A stretch of 38,874 nt of DNA. Origin: Chloroflexota bacterium (GTDB taxonomy: Bacteria > Chloroflexota > Limnocylindria > Limnocylindrales > CSP1-4). Each line of letters starts with the position of its first letter. Within the stretch, counting starts at the first letter, position 1. This document shows positions 10,256-18,478 of the stretch, piece after piece. The position numbers were made by a program, and so were the translations under genes. The notes below the pieces were generated by a model. It saw only the letters and a list, made by a program, of their open reading frames with translations, was not told the origin of the DNA and ran no database searches. Location of the stretch: NCBI GenBank assembly GCA_003141455.1, contig PLMA01000046.1, positions 16,761-55,634 on the forward strand. The letters are read 5' to 3'.

Positions 10256-10726
10256 CTAGGCGGCCTGATCCAGGGCCGACTGAAGGGACTGCTGGTAGGC
10301 CTGGCTCGTGTACGTGGCGCCCGAAACGCTGTCCACCTGGGCGCTCTGAGCCTGCAGGACCTCGCTGCGCAGCTGCGGCGCGGCGTACCGACTGACCTGC
10401 GACGAATGCCCGCCGCTCGGGAGCTGCAGTGTCTGGACGTCGGTGATACGCCCGCTCTGCAGGCTCACCTGCACCTGGACGTTGCCGAACGGGGTCTGAA
10501 CGGAGGAGCCCGTGAGCTGACCCGTGTATGAACCCTTCGGCGCCGGCGTGCCGGCTGCCGCCGGCCCGCCTCCCACCGCCGGCACACCGCCCGCCGCCGG
10601 GGTGCCGGCCGGACCGTTCACGGGCGCAGGAGCGCTCACCCCGACCGTAGCCGGCGTCTTGAAGCTCAAGAGCAGGGCCAGCGCGACGGCTGTCAGGAAG
10701 GTGCCGATTACGGCTCTCATAGGCAT
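10256..10726 (-). CDS. Secreted FMN-binding domain protein
   Basis: This 156-residue protein has an N-terminal hydrophobic export segment (about 5-21), a Gly/Ala/Pro-rich linker (25-63) and an FMN_bind domain (about 64-156). The sequence VDSVSGATYTS at 131-141 matches the ApbE flavinylation motif; T138 would carry FMN through a phosphoester bond, as in NqrC and RnfG. The protein should therefore be an extracytoplasmic one-flavin electron carrier. It begins 17 nt after the stop of the transmembrane reductase gene, with GGGGAGAG in front of the ATG, so the reductase is the likely electron donor or acceptor. No ApbE gene is in the window, so the modifying enzyme must be encoded elsewhere. Confidence 0.9.
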   Translation of the reverse strand: MPMRAVIGTFLTAVALALLLSFKTPATVGVSAPAPVNGPAGTPAAGGVPAVGGGPAAAGTPAPKGSYTGQLTGSSVQTPFGNVQVQVSLQSGRITDVQTLQLPSGGHSSQVSRYAAPQLRSEVLQAQSAQVDSVSGATYTSQAYQQSLQSALDQAA

Positions 10727-10743
10727 TTCTATCTCTCCCCGCT

Positions 10744-12192
10744 TCAGAACGAGAAGCGTTCGTAGTGGATCTGCGCGGACGGGATGCGCAGCCAGCGCAA
10801 TCCGCTAAGGACGCGTTGCATCATCCCGGTCGGACCGCAGATGTAGATGTCACGTTCGTGAATATCGGGAACGAGGCGGCGGAGGGCCCGCGGCTCGAGC
10901 GGATCGATCGGCATCTCGCGCGATCCACGCCGCCCGACGAGATAGTGGACCGTGGCGCCGCGCAGGCTGGCCAGCTGATCGATCTCTTCACGGAAGACGA
11001 TCTCCTCGGGGCTACTCGCTCGGTAGACCAGGGTCAGATTGCCCCGCGATGCCGGCAACTCCTCGAGCAGCGCCCGGAGAGGTGTGATACCGATGCCACC
11101 CGCGATCATCAGCACGCGGGCTTTCCTTCGAGCCAGACCGGTGAAGGCTCCGTATGGGCCTTCGAGCATCACCGGAGTTCCGACCCGGATGCGCTGCAGC
11201 TTGCCGGTGTGATCGCCCAGGTCCTTGATGGTGAACCGGAGATACCGGCCGTTTGGCGCGGCTGAGATCGAGAATGGGTGTGCCTTGTACCAGTCCTCGG
11301 TGGTCAGGAAGCGAAGGCGGAACCACTGGCCGGCGCGAACTGGCAGCAGATCGAGGTCGCGACCCGTCAGGTAGATCGAAGTCACTCCCGGCGCCTCCTC
11401 GACCACGTTGGCGACGCGGAAGCGGTGCCGCCAGGTGGCTGCGAAAGGCTGGCCGAAGCGGAACGCCAGCAAGGTGCCGAAGGCGATCACGTACAAGGCC
11501 ATCCAGTACAGAGTCGCGAGCTGGTCGGTGGTGAAGTCGACCCCGACGAAGATCTGGTGGAGGAAGCCGAGCGCGATAGCCAGGTACGTGTAGAGATGGA
11601 TGGCGTACCAGGCTTCGTAGGAAAGTCGCCGGCGTGCGGCGCGGATCGAGCTGAACGCCACGAAGATGAAGAGCCCCAGCGACACCGCCGACCAGAGAAC
11701 GTACGGGTACGTCGTCAAGAGCGCGACTACCTCGTCCACCGGGGAGCTGTTCACTCCCATCCCCAACCCGATCGTTGTGAAGATGGCGTGGAAGACCAGC
11801 AGCCAGATCGCGCCGAACCCGACCCAGCGGTGGGCGTCGGTGATGCGGTCCTGGCCGAATACCTGGTCGAGCCACGGATTGCGCGACATCAGGATCAGCT
11901 GAATCAGGACAAGGTACGTCCCATACAGGGCGCACAGCTCTCCGATCGCGGTCAAGATGCCGGCGGGCGTCGACAGCTCGTGGAGATTGCCGTGGCGGAT
12001 CCACATGCCGGCGATCAGCAGCGCATTGCCGCCCAGGAGTGCGTAAAAGTCGTTGGCTTTGACAGGCCAGACGCGCGGGATCGGCACACGGCGCACCTTG
12101 CGGGTGGGGGCCGCGACCCTGACCCGGGTTTGGGCGACGTAGCTGCCGTTCATGGGGCGGTCTCGAGTCTCCGGTCTACCTGGCTTGGGCAT
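10744..12192 (-). CDS. Ferric reductase-like transmembrane flavo-haem oxidoreductase
   Basis: This 482-residue protein has six predicted membrane helices (about 48-245) followed by an FAD-binding ferredoxin-reductase domain (about 255-355) and an NAD(P)-binding domain (about 358-475). Four histidines, H121/H135 and H199/H212, have the paired 13-14-residue spacing of bis-haem ferric reductases and NADPH oxidases. The FAD motif is HPFSIS (305-310), with GPYG at 345-348, GGIGITP at 365-371 and ICGP at 451-454. Electrons would pass from cytosolic NAD(P)H through FAD and two haems to the outer face, here most likely to the FMN-binding protein encoded 17 nt downstream. The ATG at 12192 is chosen because TACGCT lies 8 nt upstream; ATG 12153 (internal, Met14) has no better site. 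Confidence 0.9.
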   Translation of the reverse strand: MPKPGRPETRDRPMNGSYVAQTRVRVAAPTRKVRRVPIPRVWPVKANDFYALLGGNALLIAGMWIRHGNLHELSTPAGILTAIGELCALYGTYLVLIQLILMSRNPWLDQVFGQDRITDAHRWVGFGAIWLLVFHAIFTTIGLGMGVNSSPVDEVVALLTTYPYVLWSAVSLGLFIFVAFSSIRAARRRLSYEAWYAIHLYTYLAIALGFLHQIFVGVDFTTDQLATLYWMALYVIAFGTLLAFRFGQPFAATWRHRFRVANVVEEAPGVTSIYLTGRDLDLLPVRAGQWFRLRFLTTEDWYKAHPFSISAAPNGRYLRFTIKDLGDHTGKLQRIRVGTPVMLEGPYGAFTGLARRKARVLMIAGGIGITPLRALLEELPASRGNLTLVYRASSPEEIVFREEIDQLASLRGATVHYLVGRRGSREMPIDPLEPRALRRLVPDIHERDIYICGPTGMMQRVLSGLRWLRIPSAQIHYERFSF

Positions 12193-12206
12193 GGGCGTCC
12201 AGCGTA
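12193..12206 (-). promoter_or_regulatory. Putative -10 of a leaderless transcript
   Basis: Minus-strand TACGCT (plus 12201-12206), preceded by TG, ends 8 nt before the ATG at 12192. There is no Shine-Dalgarno. The spacing is the longest of the leaderless candidates, so this one is less certain. Confidence 0.4.
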
Positions 12207-12404
12207 CATCTGGTTCGCGGCATCCCCGCGAGGAACTGACGCCACGAATCTTCGAGTTCAATCCTGACACCAGGCTGAAGACCCCGCGGACCAACTATGG
12301 ATTTACCGTGGAGACGGCGTGGAGAATCTTGCACCGTCGACGAGGCCACTGGAGATGGCAAGTCGGTGCCGGACGCAGCCGGCGCATCGCACCGGGGCCC
12401 GCAT

Positions 12405-12502: not shown

Positions 12503-12922
12503 ATGTCCCGAGCAACCGGCTGGCTTCGCCCGCCCACAACCGCCTACGCACACTGCGACGTTCCGTGCGGCATCTACGACCCGCACGCTGCCGAGCTTGC
12601 CGCTCGCACCGTCGCCCGAATGGTCGAGCTGATAGGCCAGCTGCCCAAAGAGAATCCCACCGAGGCGGACCGCGCCAAGTTGGTCCGCTGCATCACGGTG
12701 AAGGAGCAGCACGCCGAGATCGTGAAGCACGAGATCGGGGTCATCTGGAGCGACTACTTCAAGCCCGAGCACGTGGAGCGCTACCCGGATCTCCACGATC
12801 GAACGTGGAAGATCCTCAAGCTCGCGGGCAAGAACAAGCAGAACATCGACGCCGCGGCTGCCGCCGAGCTCGAGGCCGCGGTCAAGGAGTACGCCGACAT
12901 CTTCTGGTCCACCAAGAAGTGA
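12503..12922 (+). CDS. sodN: Nickel superoxide dismutase precursor
   Basis: This 139-residue protein carries the diagnostic nickel hook HCDVPCGIYDP at residues 17-27. After removal of a 16-residue propeptide ending in AYA, His17 becomes residue 1, and His1, Cys2 and Cys6 with their backbone nitrogens bind nickel. The rest matches the family four-helix bundle, including IVKHEIGVIWSDYFKPEH and the ending DIFWSTKK. It converts superoxide to oxygen and hydrogen peroxide in the cytosol as a hexamer. GAGAGGAG sets the ATG. The 3' end overlaps the start of the maturation protease gene by four bases, the usual sodN-sodX arrangement. Identification from the hook motif is secure. Confidence 0.97.
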   Translation: MSRATGWLRPPTTAYAHCDVPCGIYDPHAAELAARTVARMVELIGQLPKENPTEADRAKLVRCITVKEQHAEIVKHEIGVIWSDYFKPEHVERYPDLHDRTWKILKLAGKNKQNIDAAAAAELEAAVKEYADIFWSTKK

Positions 12923-13425
12923 CGTTCGAGCCATCGGACGAGTCGGGCGCCGGAGGCAAATCCTCCGGCGTTTCGCTGTCTCCTCTTGCGGACGCGTGGG
13001 GCCGCCTGCGAACCGGCGTCTGGCGCGTTGCCGTGGCCGAGGAGAGCATGGCCCCCGCCCTCGCCGCCGGGGATTGGCTGCTCCTCGACCCGACGCCACC
13101 GCGCTGGCCGCGGCGCGGCAGCGTGGTGGTATTCCACGAGCCCGAGAGCGGCCTCCTGGCCATCAAGAGGGTGGCGGCGGGCCCGGGCGACCACGTCCGC
13201 ATCTCGGCGGGGATCCTCCACCTGAGCCCGGACCAGGCCTGGCTGCTCGGCGACAACGGCGCCTCGTCGATCGATTCGCGCCGCTACGGCCCGGTGGGAC
13301 TGGATGCGCTGGTGGGACGGGCGTGGTTCCGGTACGCCCCGGCGCCACGTATCGGGCTGATCCCGCGCGGCCCGGGTCAGCCTCTCCCAAGCAGTTCGCG
13401 CGCCGCCAGCTCGATCATCCCGTAG
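12919..13425 (+). CDS. sodX: Nickel superoxide dismutase maturation protease (S26 family)
   Basis: This 168-residue signal-peptidase-like protein starts with GTG inside the sodN stop (GTGA), so translation is coupled. It keeps the serine of ESMAP (S43) and the lysine of IKRVAAG (K83), the S26 catalytic dyad, plus the box-E-like GDNGASSIDSRRYGPV. It lacks an obvious membrane anchor, consistent with a protease that trims the sodN propeptide in the cytosol to expose the N-terminal His for nickel binding. The last 16 codons overlap the 3' end of the convergent F420-type oxidoreductase gene (49 bp), so the C-terminal tail after about residue 150 may not be conserved. Confidence 0.92.
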   Translation: MTFEPSDESGAGGKSSGVSLSPLADAWGRLRTGVWRVAVAEESMAPALAAGDWLLLDPTPPRWPRRGSVVVFHEPESGLLAIKRVAAGPGDHVRISAGILHLSPDQAWLLGDNGASSIDSRRYGPVGLDALVGRAWFRYAPAPRIGLIPRGPGQPLPSSSRAASSIIP

Positions 13426-14330
13426 TCGCGGGGCAGCAGGTCCTGCAGGATGATCCGCTGCGCACCGGCCGCGGCGAAGCGGGCGACCATCGCCCGAGCC
13501 TCGGTCGGGGTGCCGGCAACCCAGCGCTTCCGGCGAGTCTTCAGCCAGGCCTCGGCGTCCGTGCCGGCCTCACCAACAATGGCCAGCTGAGCCTGCACCC
13601 GCCCGGCAAGTTCGGCCTCGTCCCGGCCGATCAGCAGCCCCGCCATGACCGAGTGCGCCACGGCGGCGGGGTCCCTGCCGATCCTGCGGCACTGTTCGTC
13701 CAGTCGGGCGAAGGCCTCCGCGCAGCTGTCCGGATCGCTGCTCGACATGTTGTATTCATCGGCGTAGCGAGCGGCGAGGCGCAGCGAACGGGGACTCCCT
13801 TCCCCGCCGACGATGATCGGTGGGTGGGGGCGCTGGACCGGCTTGGGAGCGAACGATGCCGACTCGATGCGAAGCTTCTTGCCCTCGAACGACCAGCCGT
13901 CCGGCTCCTCCCACAGGCCGTGGAGGATCGCCAGTTCGTCCTCCATCAGATCGGCGCGCTCGACGATCTCGGGAAAGGCCAGGCCGAGTCGCCTGTGTTC
14001 CGGCTCGTTCCAGCCGGCCCCAACGCCGACCTCGATTCGACCTCCGCTCATCTCGTCCGCCGTGGTCACGACCTTGGCGAATGACCCGGGATGGCGGAAC
14101 GTCACGGGCGAGACCAGCGTGCCGAGCCGGATGCGCGTCGTCTCGCGGGCGATTCCGGCCAGGACCGTCCAGGCGTCGGTGGTCGGGTTGTCATCCGGGC
14201 CCGGGAAGCTGCGGTAGTGGTCCGATCGGAAGAAGGCCTCGAACCCGAGGCGTTCGGCCAGCCGGGCAATCTCGAGCTGCTCGGCGTAGGAGAGTCCCTG
14301 CTGGGGCTCGATCATCAGCGCGAATCGCAT
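13377..14330 (-). CDS. LLM-class F420-dependent oxidoreductase
   Basis: This 317-residue luciferase-like (LLM) TIM-barrel protein shows the family opening MRFALMIEPQQG, the strand FEAFFRSDHY, RIRLGTLVSPVTFRHPG, and RIEVGVGAGWNEPEH, all typical of F420-dependent members. The substrate cannot be read; relatives reduce or oxidise diverse compounds using coenzyme F420. ATG 14330 is set by GGAGG about 6 nt upstream on the minus strand; a longer frame starts without such support. It is convergent with sodX and overlaps it by 49 bp. It indicates that the organism makes or uses F420, although FMN use by some family members cannot be excluded. Confidence 0.88.
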   Translation of the reverse strand: MRFALMIEPQQGLSYAEQLEIARLAERLGFEAFFRSDHYRSFPGPDDNPTTDAWTVLAGIARETTRIRLGTLVSPVTFRHPGSFAKVVTTADEMSGGRIEVGVGAGWNEPEHRRLGLAFPEIVERADLMEDELAILHGLWEEPDGWSFEGKKLRIESASFAPKPVQRPHPPIIVGGEGSPRSLRLAARYADEYNMSSSDPDSCAEAFARLDEQCRRIGRDPAAVAHSVMAGLLIGRDEAELAGRVQAQLAIVGEAGTDAEAWLKTRRKRWVAGTPTEARAMVARFAAAGAQRIILQDLLPRDYGMIELAARELLGRG

Positions 14331-14442
14331 CGCGACCTCCGGGCAGCGTGAGCGGTTGACCGACCTCGGCCGTCGGCGCATGAATGATCGCTCTCCTCGG
14401 GGAATAACACATTTGCGCGATGCAGGAAGTCCCGTCGCCCGC

Positions 14443-14554: not shown

Positions 14555-14645
14555 CTCACGTACTTGGCAGCAGCGGCCCCCTCCACCGGCCCGCCTCTCC
14601 TTAGCCCAGGGCGTTGACGATGGCGGGCTCCCGCCACGGAACCGG

Positions 14646-14657
14646 CATACTTCGATC
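14646..14657 (+). promoter_or_regulatory. Putative -10 of a leaderless transcript
   Basis: CATACT at 14646-14651 ends 6 nt before ATG 14658 and there is no Shine-Dalgarno. TTGACG occurs at 14614-14619, but 26 bp is too far for a normal -35. Confidence 0.45.
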
Positions 14658-15773
14658 ATGCCCGAGAAGCTCCTCCCACCGAATCCACCGCTCAGCGACG
14701 GCGTGATACTGCTGCGGCCCTTCCGTGCAGACGACGCGCTCGACATCACGGCAGCCTGCCAGGACCCGGCCATCCAGCGCTGGATCCCGGTCATCCCCGT
14801 GCCCTACACCGAGGCCGACGCGCGGCGCTTCATCCTGATGGCATTGCAGTCCTGGAACGACGGAACCCGGTACGAGTTCGCGATAGCGGACGCGGCCTCC
14901 GACCTCTACATCGGCTCGGTCGGGCTGAACCTGGGGCCGAATCCCCGGCGCCACGCAATTGGCTACCTGGTGGCACCCGAGGCTCGAGGCCGCGGTGTCG
15001 CCACCAGGGCCGTGCGCCTCATCACACGCTGGGCCTTCGAATCGCTGGCCATCGAGCGTTTGGCCCTGTGGACGCTTCCCGGCAACGTAGCGTCTCAAGA
15101 CGTGGCTGAGAAGGCCGGCTTCCGCTACGAGGGGCTGGTCCGGAACTGGGAAGCGGACCGCGACGACCGACCCATCGACGCCGTTATGTTCTCCATGACG
15201 CCCGCGGACCTGGCCGACGACCTCGCCGAGGCCGGCGACGCGCCCGCACCGGGCAGGCTGTCGTCGCCACCGGACCGGACTACCGGCGCCCCGCCCATAG
15301 CTCGCTTCCCGCGCGAGCTCCGAGCGACCGGGACGCGTGCGGCGCCGTTCGTGGAGATCGCGGCCGTCTCGGACCTGGAGCCCGGGACCATGCGGCGGGT
15401 CACGCTGGCGGATTTCGACCTGCTGGTGGCCTGGACGGAAGACGGGATCGTGGTCAGCGACGATCGCTGCCCGCACATGTCGGCGCCGCTCTCGATAGGC
15501 GAGCTCGAGGGCTGCGTGGTCGCCTGCCCGCTCCACGAGGGACGCTTCGACCTTCGTTCCGGGGAGACCGTCCGGATGCCCACGACCGGCGGTCTAGACG
15601 CCGATGGCCTGTACCACTCGCCGTGGTCTCCGTCGGGGACGCTGCCCAGGTCCGAGCCGCCATCCAAGAAGCTGGCGGCGCGCCGCCTGACCCGCGTCAA
15701 CCGGCTCCGCTACTACTCAGCCCGCATACGCGACGGCCACCTTGAGGCACAACTCCCGATCCTGCCGGAGTAG
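14658..15773 (+). CDS. GNAT acetyltransferase-Rieske [2Fe-2S] fusion protein
   Basis: This 371-residue fusion contains two unrelated domains. Residues 10-180 form a RimJ/RimL-type GNAT acetyltransferase: ILLRPFRADDALDI at the start, the acetyl-CoA loop EARGRGVATRAV near 108-119, and AEKAGFRYEGLVRN near 150-163. After a short Pro/Ala linker (about 186-226), residues 228-365 form a Rieske ferredoxin-like domain with the full ligand set C271, H273, C290 and H293 (CPHMSAP and CPLHEGRFDL), the usual two-loop spacing. The first domain should acetylate an amine or protein N-terminus with acetyl-CoA; the second should hold a 2Fe-2S cluster. One uninterrupted frame runs through both. No partner redox gene is adjacent. 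A redox-sensing or tethering role is inference. Confidence 0.88.
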   Translation: MPEKLLPPNPPLSDGVILLRPFRADDALDITAACQDPAIQRWIPVIPVPYTEADARRFILMALQSWNDGTRYEFAIADAASDLYIGSVGLNLGPNPRRHAIGYLVAPEARGRGVATRAVRLITRWAFESLAIERLALWTLPGNVASQDVAEKAGFRYEGLVRNWEADRDDRPIDAVMFSMTPADLADDLAEAGDAPAPGRLSSPPDRTTGAPPIARFPRELRATGTRAAPFVEIAAVSDLEPGTMRRVTLADFDLLVAWTEDGIVVSDDRCPHMSAPLSIGELEGCVVACPLHEGRFDLRSGETVRMPTTGGLDADGLYHSPWSPSGTLPRSEPPSKKLAARRLTRVNRLRYYSARIRDGHLEAQLPILPE

Positions 15774-15803: not shown

Positions 15804-16793
15804 CTATCGGTGCGCCCCGGTCCTGCCGCGGGTTCGAACCGGCTCGTCGACCTCCCGGGCCCGCTCCGTGACGCCTGCAGTAAGCATCCTGCAAGCCTCG
15901 TCCATGTCGTCCGTACATTGGAGCAGGTCCAGGTCCGCGATCTCGATGGCACCGCGGGCAACGGCCTCCGTCCTGAGCCAGCCAAGCAGGCCGGACCAGT
16001 AGTCCGCTCCGACCAGCACGACGGGGAAGTGCTTGATCTTGCCCGTCTGGATCAGCGTCAGCGACTCGAACAATTCGTCGAGCGTGCCGAAGCCGCCGGG
16101 GAAGATGGCAAACCCGTCGGCGTACTTCACGAACATCATCTTGCGGGCGAAGAAGTAGCGGAACTCGACGCCCAGATCTACGTACCGGTTGATCGCCTGC
16201 TCATGCGGCAGTTCGATGTTGCAGCCGATCGAGAGCCCACCTGCGTCATGACAACCGCGGTTGGCCGCTTCCATGATGCCGGGGCCGCCGCCGGTGATGA
16301 CCGCGAAGCCGTCCTTGGCGAGCAGACCCGCCAGCTTCCGGGCCTTGGCGTAGTACGGGTCGCCCTCTCCGATGCGTGCCGAACCGAAGATCGTTACCGC
16401 CTTGCCGATGCTGGCCAGGGCATCGAAGCCCTCCACGAACTCGGCCAGGATGCGCAGCGAGCGCCACGGATCCGAGTCGCGGAAGTCCGGCCGGGCACCC
16501 GTGTCGAGGAGTCGCTCGTCCTCGGTTCGGGCGTGAGTCGTGAGCATCGCCGCGGCTTTGGGCTGATAGGTCACGCGGCCGGCGCGGTGGCGGCCGTGGT
16601 CACTGTATCCGTCAGAGGGGTTCGCCACTCCGTTGCCGGCGCTGCCCGCGGCGACACGGGGCGGTGCCGGCGGGGCCGACGGAGCCGGCGGCTCCGGTGG
16701 AGCCGGAGTGACGGCGGCCCGCGGAGACGCGGACCTGATCTTCATGGACGGTCTCGTACCGTCCTTGTCTTTCTTGTGTGGCGAATGAGGCAT
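15804..16793 (-). CDS. LOG-family Rossmann-fold protein (TIGR00730 type)
   Basis: This 329-residue protein has the LOG signatures ITGGGPGIMEAANRG and FPGGFGTLDELFE, which build the nucleotide-binding site of cytokinin riboside 5'-monophosphate phosphoribohydrolases; FARKMMFVKYADGF between them is also typical. The enzyme would hydrolyse nucleoside 5'-monophosphates to a base and ribose 5-phosphate; the physiological substrate in bacteria is often unknown. The first 90 or so residues are an unusual low-complexity, Pro/Ala-rich and basic extension. The ATG at 16793 is favoured by AGGAGAG just upstream. Its stop lies 30 bp from that of the convergent GNAT-Rieske gene. Confidence 0.87.
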   Translation of the reverse strand: MPHSPHKKDKDGTRPSMKIRSASPRAAVTPAPPEPPAPSAPPAPPRVAAGSAGNGVANPSDGYSDHGRHRAGRVTYQPKAAAMLTTHARTEDERLLDTGARPDFRDSDPWRSLRILAEFVEGFDALASIGKAVTIFGSARIGEGDPYYAKARKLAGLLAKDGFAVITGGGPGIMEAANRGCHDAGGLSIGCNIELPHEQAINRYVDLGVEFRYFFARKMMFVKYADGFAIFPGGFGTLDELFESLTLIQTGKIKHFPVVLVGADYWSGLLGWLRTEAVARGAIEIADLDLLQCTDDMDEACRMLTAGVTERAREVDEPVRTRGRTGAHR

Positions 16794-16965
16794 CGGTCTC
16801 TCCTGGTCGTTACCGCTAGAGGATGCCACGCCGAGCGGTCCGCGTGTAGGCGACTCTCCGGCGATCGATTCGGTATCGGCCGGCCATCTTGCCGAAATCC
16901 GGACGTGGCGCGGACGGCCAGGCGGCCCTGGTTGCGGTCGACTGACGCCCGCTCACGCCCCGGAA

Positions 16966-17791: not shown

Positions 17792-18478
17792 ATGCCGCGC
17801 CCCGAGCACGCCGCCCCCACCGTCGCAGTCCGCCTCGACTTCGCCGACCGGCCCGCCGCCATCGGCCAGATCGCGGCCCAGGTGGCCGCGGCCGGCGGAA
17901 CGGTCAGGACGCTAAGCACCGTCCGCCGCTGGGTGGAGGCCGAAGCCGGTCCGCTGGTCGAAATCGAGCTGGAGGTCGAGGGACTGACCGAGCAGGAGGT
18001 CACCGCCGTACTCGATCACATGCCGGCACTTCGAGGCTGCCGCAAGACCAAAGCCCTCGACAAGGTCTTCGGCAAGCGGCTCATCGTCGTCGGCGGCGGA
18101 GCGCAGATTGCCCAGGCCGTCCTCGGCGCCGTCAGCGAGGCAGACCGGCACAACATCCGCGGCGAGAAGATCTCCGTGGACACGATCCCACTCGTCGGCG
18201 AGGAGAACCTGGCAGCGGCGGTGCGCGCCGTGGCCGACCTCGACCGAGCGCGCGCCCTCCTGCTCGCCGGCTCGATCATGGGCGGCGACATCACCAGGGC
18301 CGTCCGGGAGATCCAGCTTCTCGGTATCCCCGTGGTGGCCCTCAACATGGCCGGATCGGTCACAGACGTGGCGGACCTGGTCGTCACCGACCCGGTTCAG
18401 GCCGGCACGATGGCGGTCATGGGGATCGCCGACACGGCCAAGTTCGACTTCGCCCGCCAGAAGGGCCGCCGCTACTAG
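17792..18478 (+). CDS. ACT domain plus DUF5612-like protein
   Basis: This 228-residue protein has an N-terminal ACT-like domain (about 8-85: VAVRLDFADRPAAIGQIAAQVAAAGGTV) and a C-terminal domain (about 95-225) with LIVVGGGAQIAQAVLGAVSEADRHN, RALLLAGSIMGGDI and GIPVVALNMAGSVTDVADLVV. That layout resembles DUF5612 proteins best known from methanogens. The second domain has glycine-rich turns and repeated beta-alpha units, suggesting a Rossmann- or SIS-like ligand-binding fold. Function is unknown; allosteric control of an amino acid or redox pathway is an inference from the ACT domain. It follows the stand-alone ACT gene after 5 bp and precedes exonuclease III by 21 bp. Confidence 0.7.
   Translation: MPRPEHAAPTVAVRLDFADRPAAIGQIAAQVAAAGGTVRTLSTVRRWVEAEAGPLVEIELEVEGLTEQEVTAVLDHMPALRGCRKTKALDKVFGKRLIVVGGGAQIAQAVLGAVSEADRHNIRGEKISVDTIPLVGEENLAAAVRAVADLDRARALLLAGSIMGGDITRAVREIQLLGIPVVALNMAGSVTDVADLVVTDPVQAGTMAVMGIADTAKFDFARQKGRRY

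Follow-up and report, generated by a model that had tools for sequence, protein, structure and literature searches.

A gene encoding a GNAT acetyltransferase domain and a Rieske [2Fe-2S] domain in one polypeptide is present in a 38,874-nucleotide stretch of Chloroflexota DNA (the window), and comparison across genomes confirmed, at the sequence level, that this pairing is a real, evolutionarily maintained fusion. Both domains are known and common, and it is their conserved combination that appears to be new: no GNAT-Rieske fusion is described in the accessible portions of the literature searched (PMC2922099, PMC12487129, and PMC10924467), and neither of the words Rieske and acetyltransferase occurs in the accessible main text of a report on Limnocylindraceae (PMC13212565). 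By sequence comparison with solved structures, all 44 matching chains cover one half only. The statement of the original prediction that no characterised protein is known to carry this pair was thus borne out both in the literature searched and among solved structures.

Architecture of the fusion gene

The gene occupies one unbroken frame with an ATG at 14658 and a stop at 15771-15773, encoding 371 amino acids. The single frame, its coordinates, and the four cluster ligands (C271, H273, C290, and H293) had been predicted from the DNA alone and were all correct. Its features are listed below (positions in the window).

14658-15773, + strand: GNAT-Rieske fusion gene, 371 codons plus stop; complete in 15/21 genomes of the genus and in a second genus, g30
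14706-15125, + strand: GNAT domain, RimJ/RimL-like (aa 17-156); PF13302, E 3.5e-31; Foldseek matches 2fck, RimJ 6c30, and RimL 1s7l
14985-15002, + strand: putative acetyl-CoA-binding motif R110-G-R-G-V-A115; R110 and G113 in 40/40 GNAT rows, A115 in 37/40
15234-15296, + strand: flexible linker (about aa 193-213); low pLDDT, high dN/dS, variable length
15351-15590, + strand: Rieske [2Fe-2S] domain (aa 232-311); PF00355, E 1.5e-15
15468-15476, + strand: first ligand pair, C271-P-H273; C and H in 70/70 Rieske rows
15525-15536, + strand: second ligand pair, C290-P-L-H293; C and H in 70/70 Rieske rows
15591-15707, + strand: insert particular to the family, some 38 residues long (about aa 312-350); kept in relatives with and without the GNAT

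Both predicted domain identities are upheld by Pfam scores far above the cut-offs: 109.2 bits against 25.4 for Acetyltransf_3 (PF13302) and 57.3 bits against 20.3 for PF00355. The NCBIfam equivalog profiles for RimJ and RimL stay below their cut-offs (PRK10151, 20.4 bits versus 184; PRK10809, 14.7 versus 190), and the GNAT half is therefore termed RimJ/RimL-like only. The acetyl-CoA motif of GNAT proteins reads R/QxxGxG/A, which we take the R110-A115 stretch to represent; in the 40 GNAT rows of the alignment, R110, G113, N143, and S146 are present throughout (40/40), and A115 is found in 37, being replaced by M in two and by G in one.

Judged from its sequence, the Rieske half belongs to a ferredoxin-like protein particular to the family, and its Rieske domain is complete. 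Cytochrome bc1/b6f Rieske proteins carry a second cysteine in each cluster loop; the loops of the fusion, CPHMSA and CPLH, are without these second cysteines and do not belong to that type. The loop sequence is presumably that of a dioxygenase-type, low-potential cluster. The NCBIfam equivalogs for dioxygenase ferredoxins fall below cut-off (PRK09965, 49.3 bits versus 113; AndAb, 40.7 versus 150), as does the NirD profile TIGR02378 (26 bits versus 74.65). The insert follows the cluster-binding part, precedes the last strands, and ends in a basic, strongly conserved stretch; in the comparison by sequence, the best-aligned stretch stops before it in 24/24 solved-structure matches. It may be a docking site for a partner.

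Structure was predicted with AlphaFold2 from a 94-row alignment of 16 fused, 54 Rieske-only, and 24 GNAT-only rows (hence 70 Rieske and 40 GNAT rows), from which two loci (L096 and L141) had been excluded for stops, X, or length and four more (L095, L137, L142, and L150) by choice; in another alignment (A2), one row, L012, begins one codon late. The resulting model has a mean pLDDT of 92.4 and a pTM of 0.77, with low confidence at aa 191-200 (mean pLDDT 62), aa 201-210 (55), and the last residue, an earlier model from 16 rows having been poor (pLDDT 67.9). In a Foldseek search of the PDB, the 50 matches listed of 1,486 are all acetyltransferases or GNAT-like proteins; none of the 50 has a TMq above 0.44, and none spans both halves.

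Selection on the separate parts was estimated by the Nei-Gojobori method for the window's gene against 4 of its 15 complete relatives. The GNAT gives a dN/dS ratio of 0.12-0.15 and the Rieske core one of 0.08-0.18; values are 0.085-0.25 in the insert and the end and 0.61-0.94 in the linker (aa 185-213). Both domains are thus under purifying selection, and the linker drifts in a nearly neutral manner.

Internal starts were also considered. One to four in-frame ATG, GTG, or TTG codons occur in the stretch inspected in 12/17 fusions, with a Shine-Dalgarno-like string upstream in L092 only, and the remaining five, including the window's gene, have none. Production of a separate Rieske protein from an internal start is ruled out only for those 5/17 fusions, which have no in-frame start in the stretch examined.

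Distribution and integrity of the fusion

The host bacteria are uncultured members of the family CSP1-4 (class Limnocylindria). A fusion profile matched end to end, in a single stop-free frame, at 16 places in 15 of the 21 genomes of the genus (G000-G020), the window's included and G018 contributing two places; besides the window's gene there are 15 complete relatives in 14 further genus genomes, 69-88% identical to it. Most named records of the genus are labelled as 'fen' isolates. The remaining 6/21 genomes either have the gene broken at Ns or contig ends or lack its locus in the assembly. It is fused in one frame in G004, with its 5' end cut by a two-N scaffold joint, and is interrupted by such joints in G006 and G011; in G007, the GNAT and Rieske halves lie at the ends of two different contigs. 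The left neighbour in G019 starts at about base 206 of one contig and the right neighbour ends 41 bases before the end of another, so that the fusion gene would fall in the assembly gap. In G009, the right neighbour was not matched, the LLM-class left neighbour has only distant relatives (best 38%), and there is no Rieske match, so that the locus is apparently missing from the assembly. Uninterrupted sequence with two separate genes was found in 0/21 genus genomes. Two versions of the locus (L034 and L035) lie on two contigs of G018, a genome with 6% contamination, and probably represent two strains or species binned together.

A second CSP1-4 genus, g30, also encodes a GNAT and a Rieske domain in one frame (L092, G093), in a protein 56% identical to that of the window. 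Beyond these two genera, no further end-to-end match was obtained in 107 genomes of the family (profile, E 1e-15), 177 of the class (E 1e-45), or 400 sampled from the phylum (E 1e-22), in scans of Chloroflexota chromosomes that scored up to 18, 11, and 5 candidate places per genome, respectively. Four GNAT matches in the family extend past residue 220; they contain stops, and their frames end after the GNAT. Among plasmids, 0/97 matching records cover 80% of the fusion protein, and the Rieske part alone matched 79 records, all at less than 60% identity.

The length of the frame is weak proof of a gene, since the sequence is GC-rich and a 311-aa frame overlaps the gene on the opposite strand (14601-15536). 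That the fusion is a real gene follows instead from its conservation in the 15 complete relatives and the low dN/dS of the folded parts. From residue 181 up to where the Rieske part begins, the window's gene contains no stop and no in-frame ATG, GTG, or TTG, as had been claimed, and it is not a read-through of two genes: the genus relatives and the one in the second genus are likewise fused in one frame. The original prediction had named a frameshift or assembly error at the linker, or an isolated case among separate homologues, as grounds for withdrawing it; no frameshift was found, and the gene is no isolated case. An assembly or frameshift artefact might be suspected from the metagenome-assembled data and from the two-N scaffold joints inside the gene in G004, G006, and G011. 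Against it stand the complete copies, which come from several projects judging by their records, the fusion in a second genus, the absence of any N in the window, and the selection on both halves seen in the dN/dS values; this explanation has a negligible probability and was rejected.

The ancestral locus and the origin of the fusion

Searching named GTDB genomes with the Rieske part yielded 84 confirmed places, of which 80 loci were kept: 20 fusion loci (L071-L088 and L126 of the window's genus, four of them interrupted by Ns or by the end of a contig, plus L092) and 60 non-fused loci. Two flanking genes recur across this set.

13377-14381, - strand: left neighbour, an oxidoreductase of the LLM class (TIGR03560, a family named as F420-dependent); upstream in opposite orientation at 73/80 loci
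15804-16829, - strand: right neighbour, a member of the TIGR00730 family; downstream in opposite orientation at 60/80 loci

At the non-fused loci, the LLM gene lies upstream on the opposite strand in 54/60 and the TIGR00730 gene downstream in 40/60. A same-strand MFS gene precedes the Rieske gene in 52/60, within 700 bases in 46 of these; among the eight loci without it, the available sequence is too short in three. The one MFS protein tested, from L053, scores 255.8 bits against a cut-off of 230.2 for TIGR00711, a DHA2 efflux family. None of the 60 loci has a match to the window's GNAT (tblastn, E 1e-6, a search to which other GNAT families are invisible). From the neighbours at these 60 loci, the ancestral order was most likely MFS-Rieske. 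In L092 of g30, the MFS gene is upstream and the GNAT sits exactly between it and the Rieske part; in the window's genus, an MFS gene is found at 0/19 loci, two of which have short upstream sequence. For most of the loci compared, the Rieske protein is established as the older part, standing without the GNAT at the corresponding chromosomal position in sister genera, and the GNAT as an addition in front of it.

This older, family-specific Rieske protein appears to have gained its N-terminal GNAT once or twice. A quick Rieske tree (78/80 loci, hits longer than 120 aa) does not join the fused rows, and a careful one, built without ten g1 loci and hits of up to 140 aa, joins them weakly (55/83). 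GNAT trees place the fused rows of the two genera apart, a single clade appearing in 1% and in 0% of the 200 bootstrap trees; after removal of two long-branch rows present in the first GNAT tree, the AU test gave p 0.092, so that the GNAT tree leans toward independent fusions in the two genera, short of significance. Flanking-gene trees, from which loci with fewer than four genes were omitted (and, for the AU-tested tree, 14 g1 loci as well), also lean apart, with one clade not rejected (AU p 0.226). As to one origin versus two, the trees disagree, and a single origin is not rejected.

Other genes accompany the locus. An FMN-binding domain protein and a ferric reductase-like/FAD/NAD protein are encoded at 10256-12294 (- strand); the ferric reductase-like gene is present at 16/20 fused versus 0/60 non-fused loci, a weak contrast, with only 21 of the latter reaching the adjoining nickel superoxide dismutase (Ni-SOD) gene, and the fused loci without it are L077, L080, and L088, which have too little sequence, and L092, which was read only to about the Ni-SOD gene. 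The Ni-SOD gene is followed by a signal-peptidase-like gene, presumably the Ni-SOD maturation protease (together 12503-13425, + strand), and this pair stands beside the locus in many family members. On the other side, a gene ending in DUF5612 (17792-18478, + strand) is conserved in the same block with a putative exonuclease III gene, labelled by eye.

Possible roles of the fused protein

Candidate electron partners were sought across the genus. Ring_hydroxyl_A and VanA_C were each found in 0/21 genus genomes and in 4/14 control genomes; the genus genomes are 69-95% complete, so that single absences prove little and 21 together more. A P450 was found in one of the 21 (G007), and the diiron hydroxylase PF02332, the partner expected for a ferredoxin of the T4moC type, in none, but it is also missing from all 14 controls. 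Rieske matches number two in 16/21 genomes; two genomes have a single match, G016 has three, G018 has four, and G009 has none. The only other Rieske match in the window's genome (L002, contig C68, 1501-1755) is short and lies between ornithine-cyclodeaminase-like and SufB/D-core genes. No oxygenase occurs among the conserved neighbours examined, and the LLM and TIGR00730 genes, on the other strand, name no acceptor.

The reading tentatively preferred here, with a probability somewhat below even, is that the fusion protein has two functions, its ferredoxin part being tethered yet working independently, and consists of an older Rieske protein and an added GNAT. The four ligands and the insert are also kept in Rieske proteins to which no GNAT is attached, suggesting that the Rieske half has a task older than the GNAT and that it is an electron carrier rather than a regulatory domain. 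The Rieske half would continue to pass single electrons, its ancestral task, to an acceptor other than a Rieske oxygenase, and the GNAT half would, in the same pathway, acetylate an amine on either a small molecule or the N terminus of a protein. With an efflux gene at the ancestral locus, the shared pathway would plausibly be detoxification, a reading weakened by the absence of the MFS gene from the locus in the window's genus. Fusion would fix the ratio of the two activities and keep them together, and the cluster would not necessarily gate acetyl transfer. The conservation of the fusion implies that selection sees it.

The variable, nearly neutral linker, the occurrence of each half alone in the family, and the position of the g30 GNAT exactly between the MFS gene and the Rieske part would also fit a by-product of the neighbourhood, in which a GNAT gene inserted itself behind the MFS gene and ahead of the Rieske gene and then lost its stop, both domains being needed and nothing coupling them. 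This scenario is unlikely, though worth serious consideration: the gene is fused in every genus member in which it can be read throughout, and chance becomes a poorer explanation if the two genera fused independently, as the leaning of the GNAT tree would have it. Coupling of the two halves could instead take the form of a redox-gated acetyltransferase, in which the oxidation state or the loss of the Rieske cluster would switch the GNAT. The original prediction had suggested that the Rieske domain could make acetylation redox-dependent, which the results so far do not support, or that the GNAT could modify the partner served by the ferredoxin, for which the genus offers no Rieske oxygenase as a candidate (catalytic domains in 0/21 genomes). 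Gating would fit the single polypeptide and the ligands kept in every Rieske row, and the pTM of the two-domain model leaves room for a defined interdomain contact, and hence for coupling. However, the ligands and the insert are equally conserved without a GNAT, the linker drifts and varies in length, and we know of no GNAT regulated by the redox state of a Rieske cluster; gating is accordingly rated improbable.

A conserved fusion of an electron carrier with a transferase, with an efflux-type gene adjoining in the ancestral arrangement, could also be viewed, by loose analogy with Elp3, as a two-step enzyme acting on one substrate, whose Rieske half would feed a redox step on the molecule acetylated by the GNAT. 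The likelihood of this is low as well, since a Rieske ferredoxin by itself is no catalyst, no oxygenase was seen among the conserved neighbours examined, and the genus genomes gave no Ring_hydroxyl_A or VanA_C match and a single P450. More improbable still is the compound claim that the acetyltransferase is under direct control of the Rieske cluster in its own chain, or chemically linked with it, and that the pairing arose twice independently in one family.

The host bacteria are without detected Rieske oxygenases, the usual clients of such ferredoxins, and the fusion offers a clean, testable case, be it of an acetyltransferase linked to the flow of electrons or of a Rieske protein whose acceptor has yet to be found, for which the non-fused Rieske proteins of sister genera provide a natural control. 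If the cluster does control the GNAT, acetylation of the target would follow the electron supply or the iron-sulfur status of the cell.

Several known systems resemble parts of the fusion. Elp3 likewise combines an iron-sulfur domain and a GNAT domain in one polypeptide, but the analogy is loose: Elp3 is a radical SAM enzyme, not a Rieske electron carrier, and the fusion has no radical SAM Pfam match. GNATs of the RimJ/RimL/YdaF type (2fck, 6c30, 1nsl, and 1s7l) share the fold and the acetyl-CoA motif with the GNAT half, but align to that half only, with TMq up to 0.44 among the 50 matches listed. The non-fused CSP1-4 Rieske proteins are 50-66% identical to the Rieske part of the fusion, insert included, and mostly have the same neighbours; they mostly stand behind an MFS efflux-type gene, and they differ in that no match to the window's GNAT lies at their locus (0/60). 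Among solved structures, the best sequence matches of the Rieske part are dioxygenase-type Rieske ferredoxins (2qpz, CarAc 1vck, and 3dqy), which share with it the CXH-X16-CXXH motif and the surrounding region; in contrast to them, the fusion has an insert of about 38 residues before the last strands and carries a GNAT at its N terminus.
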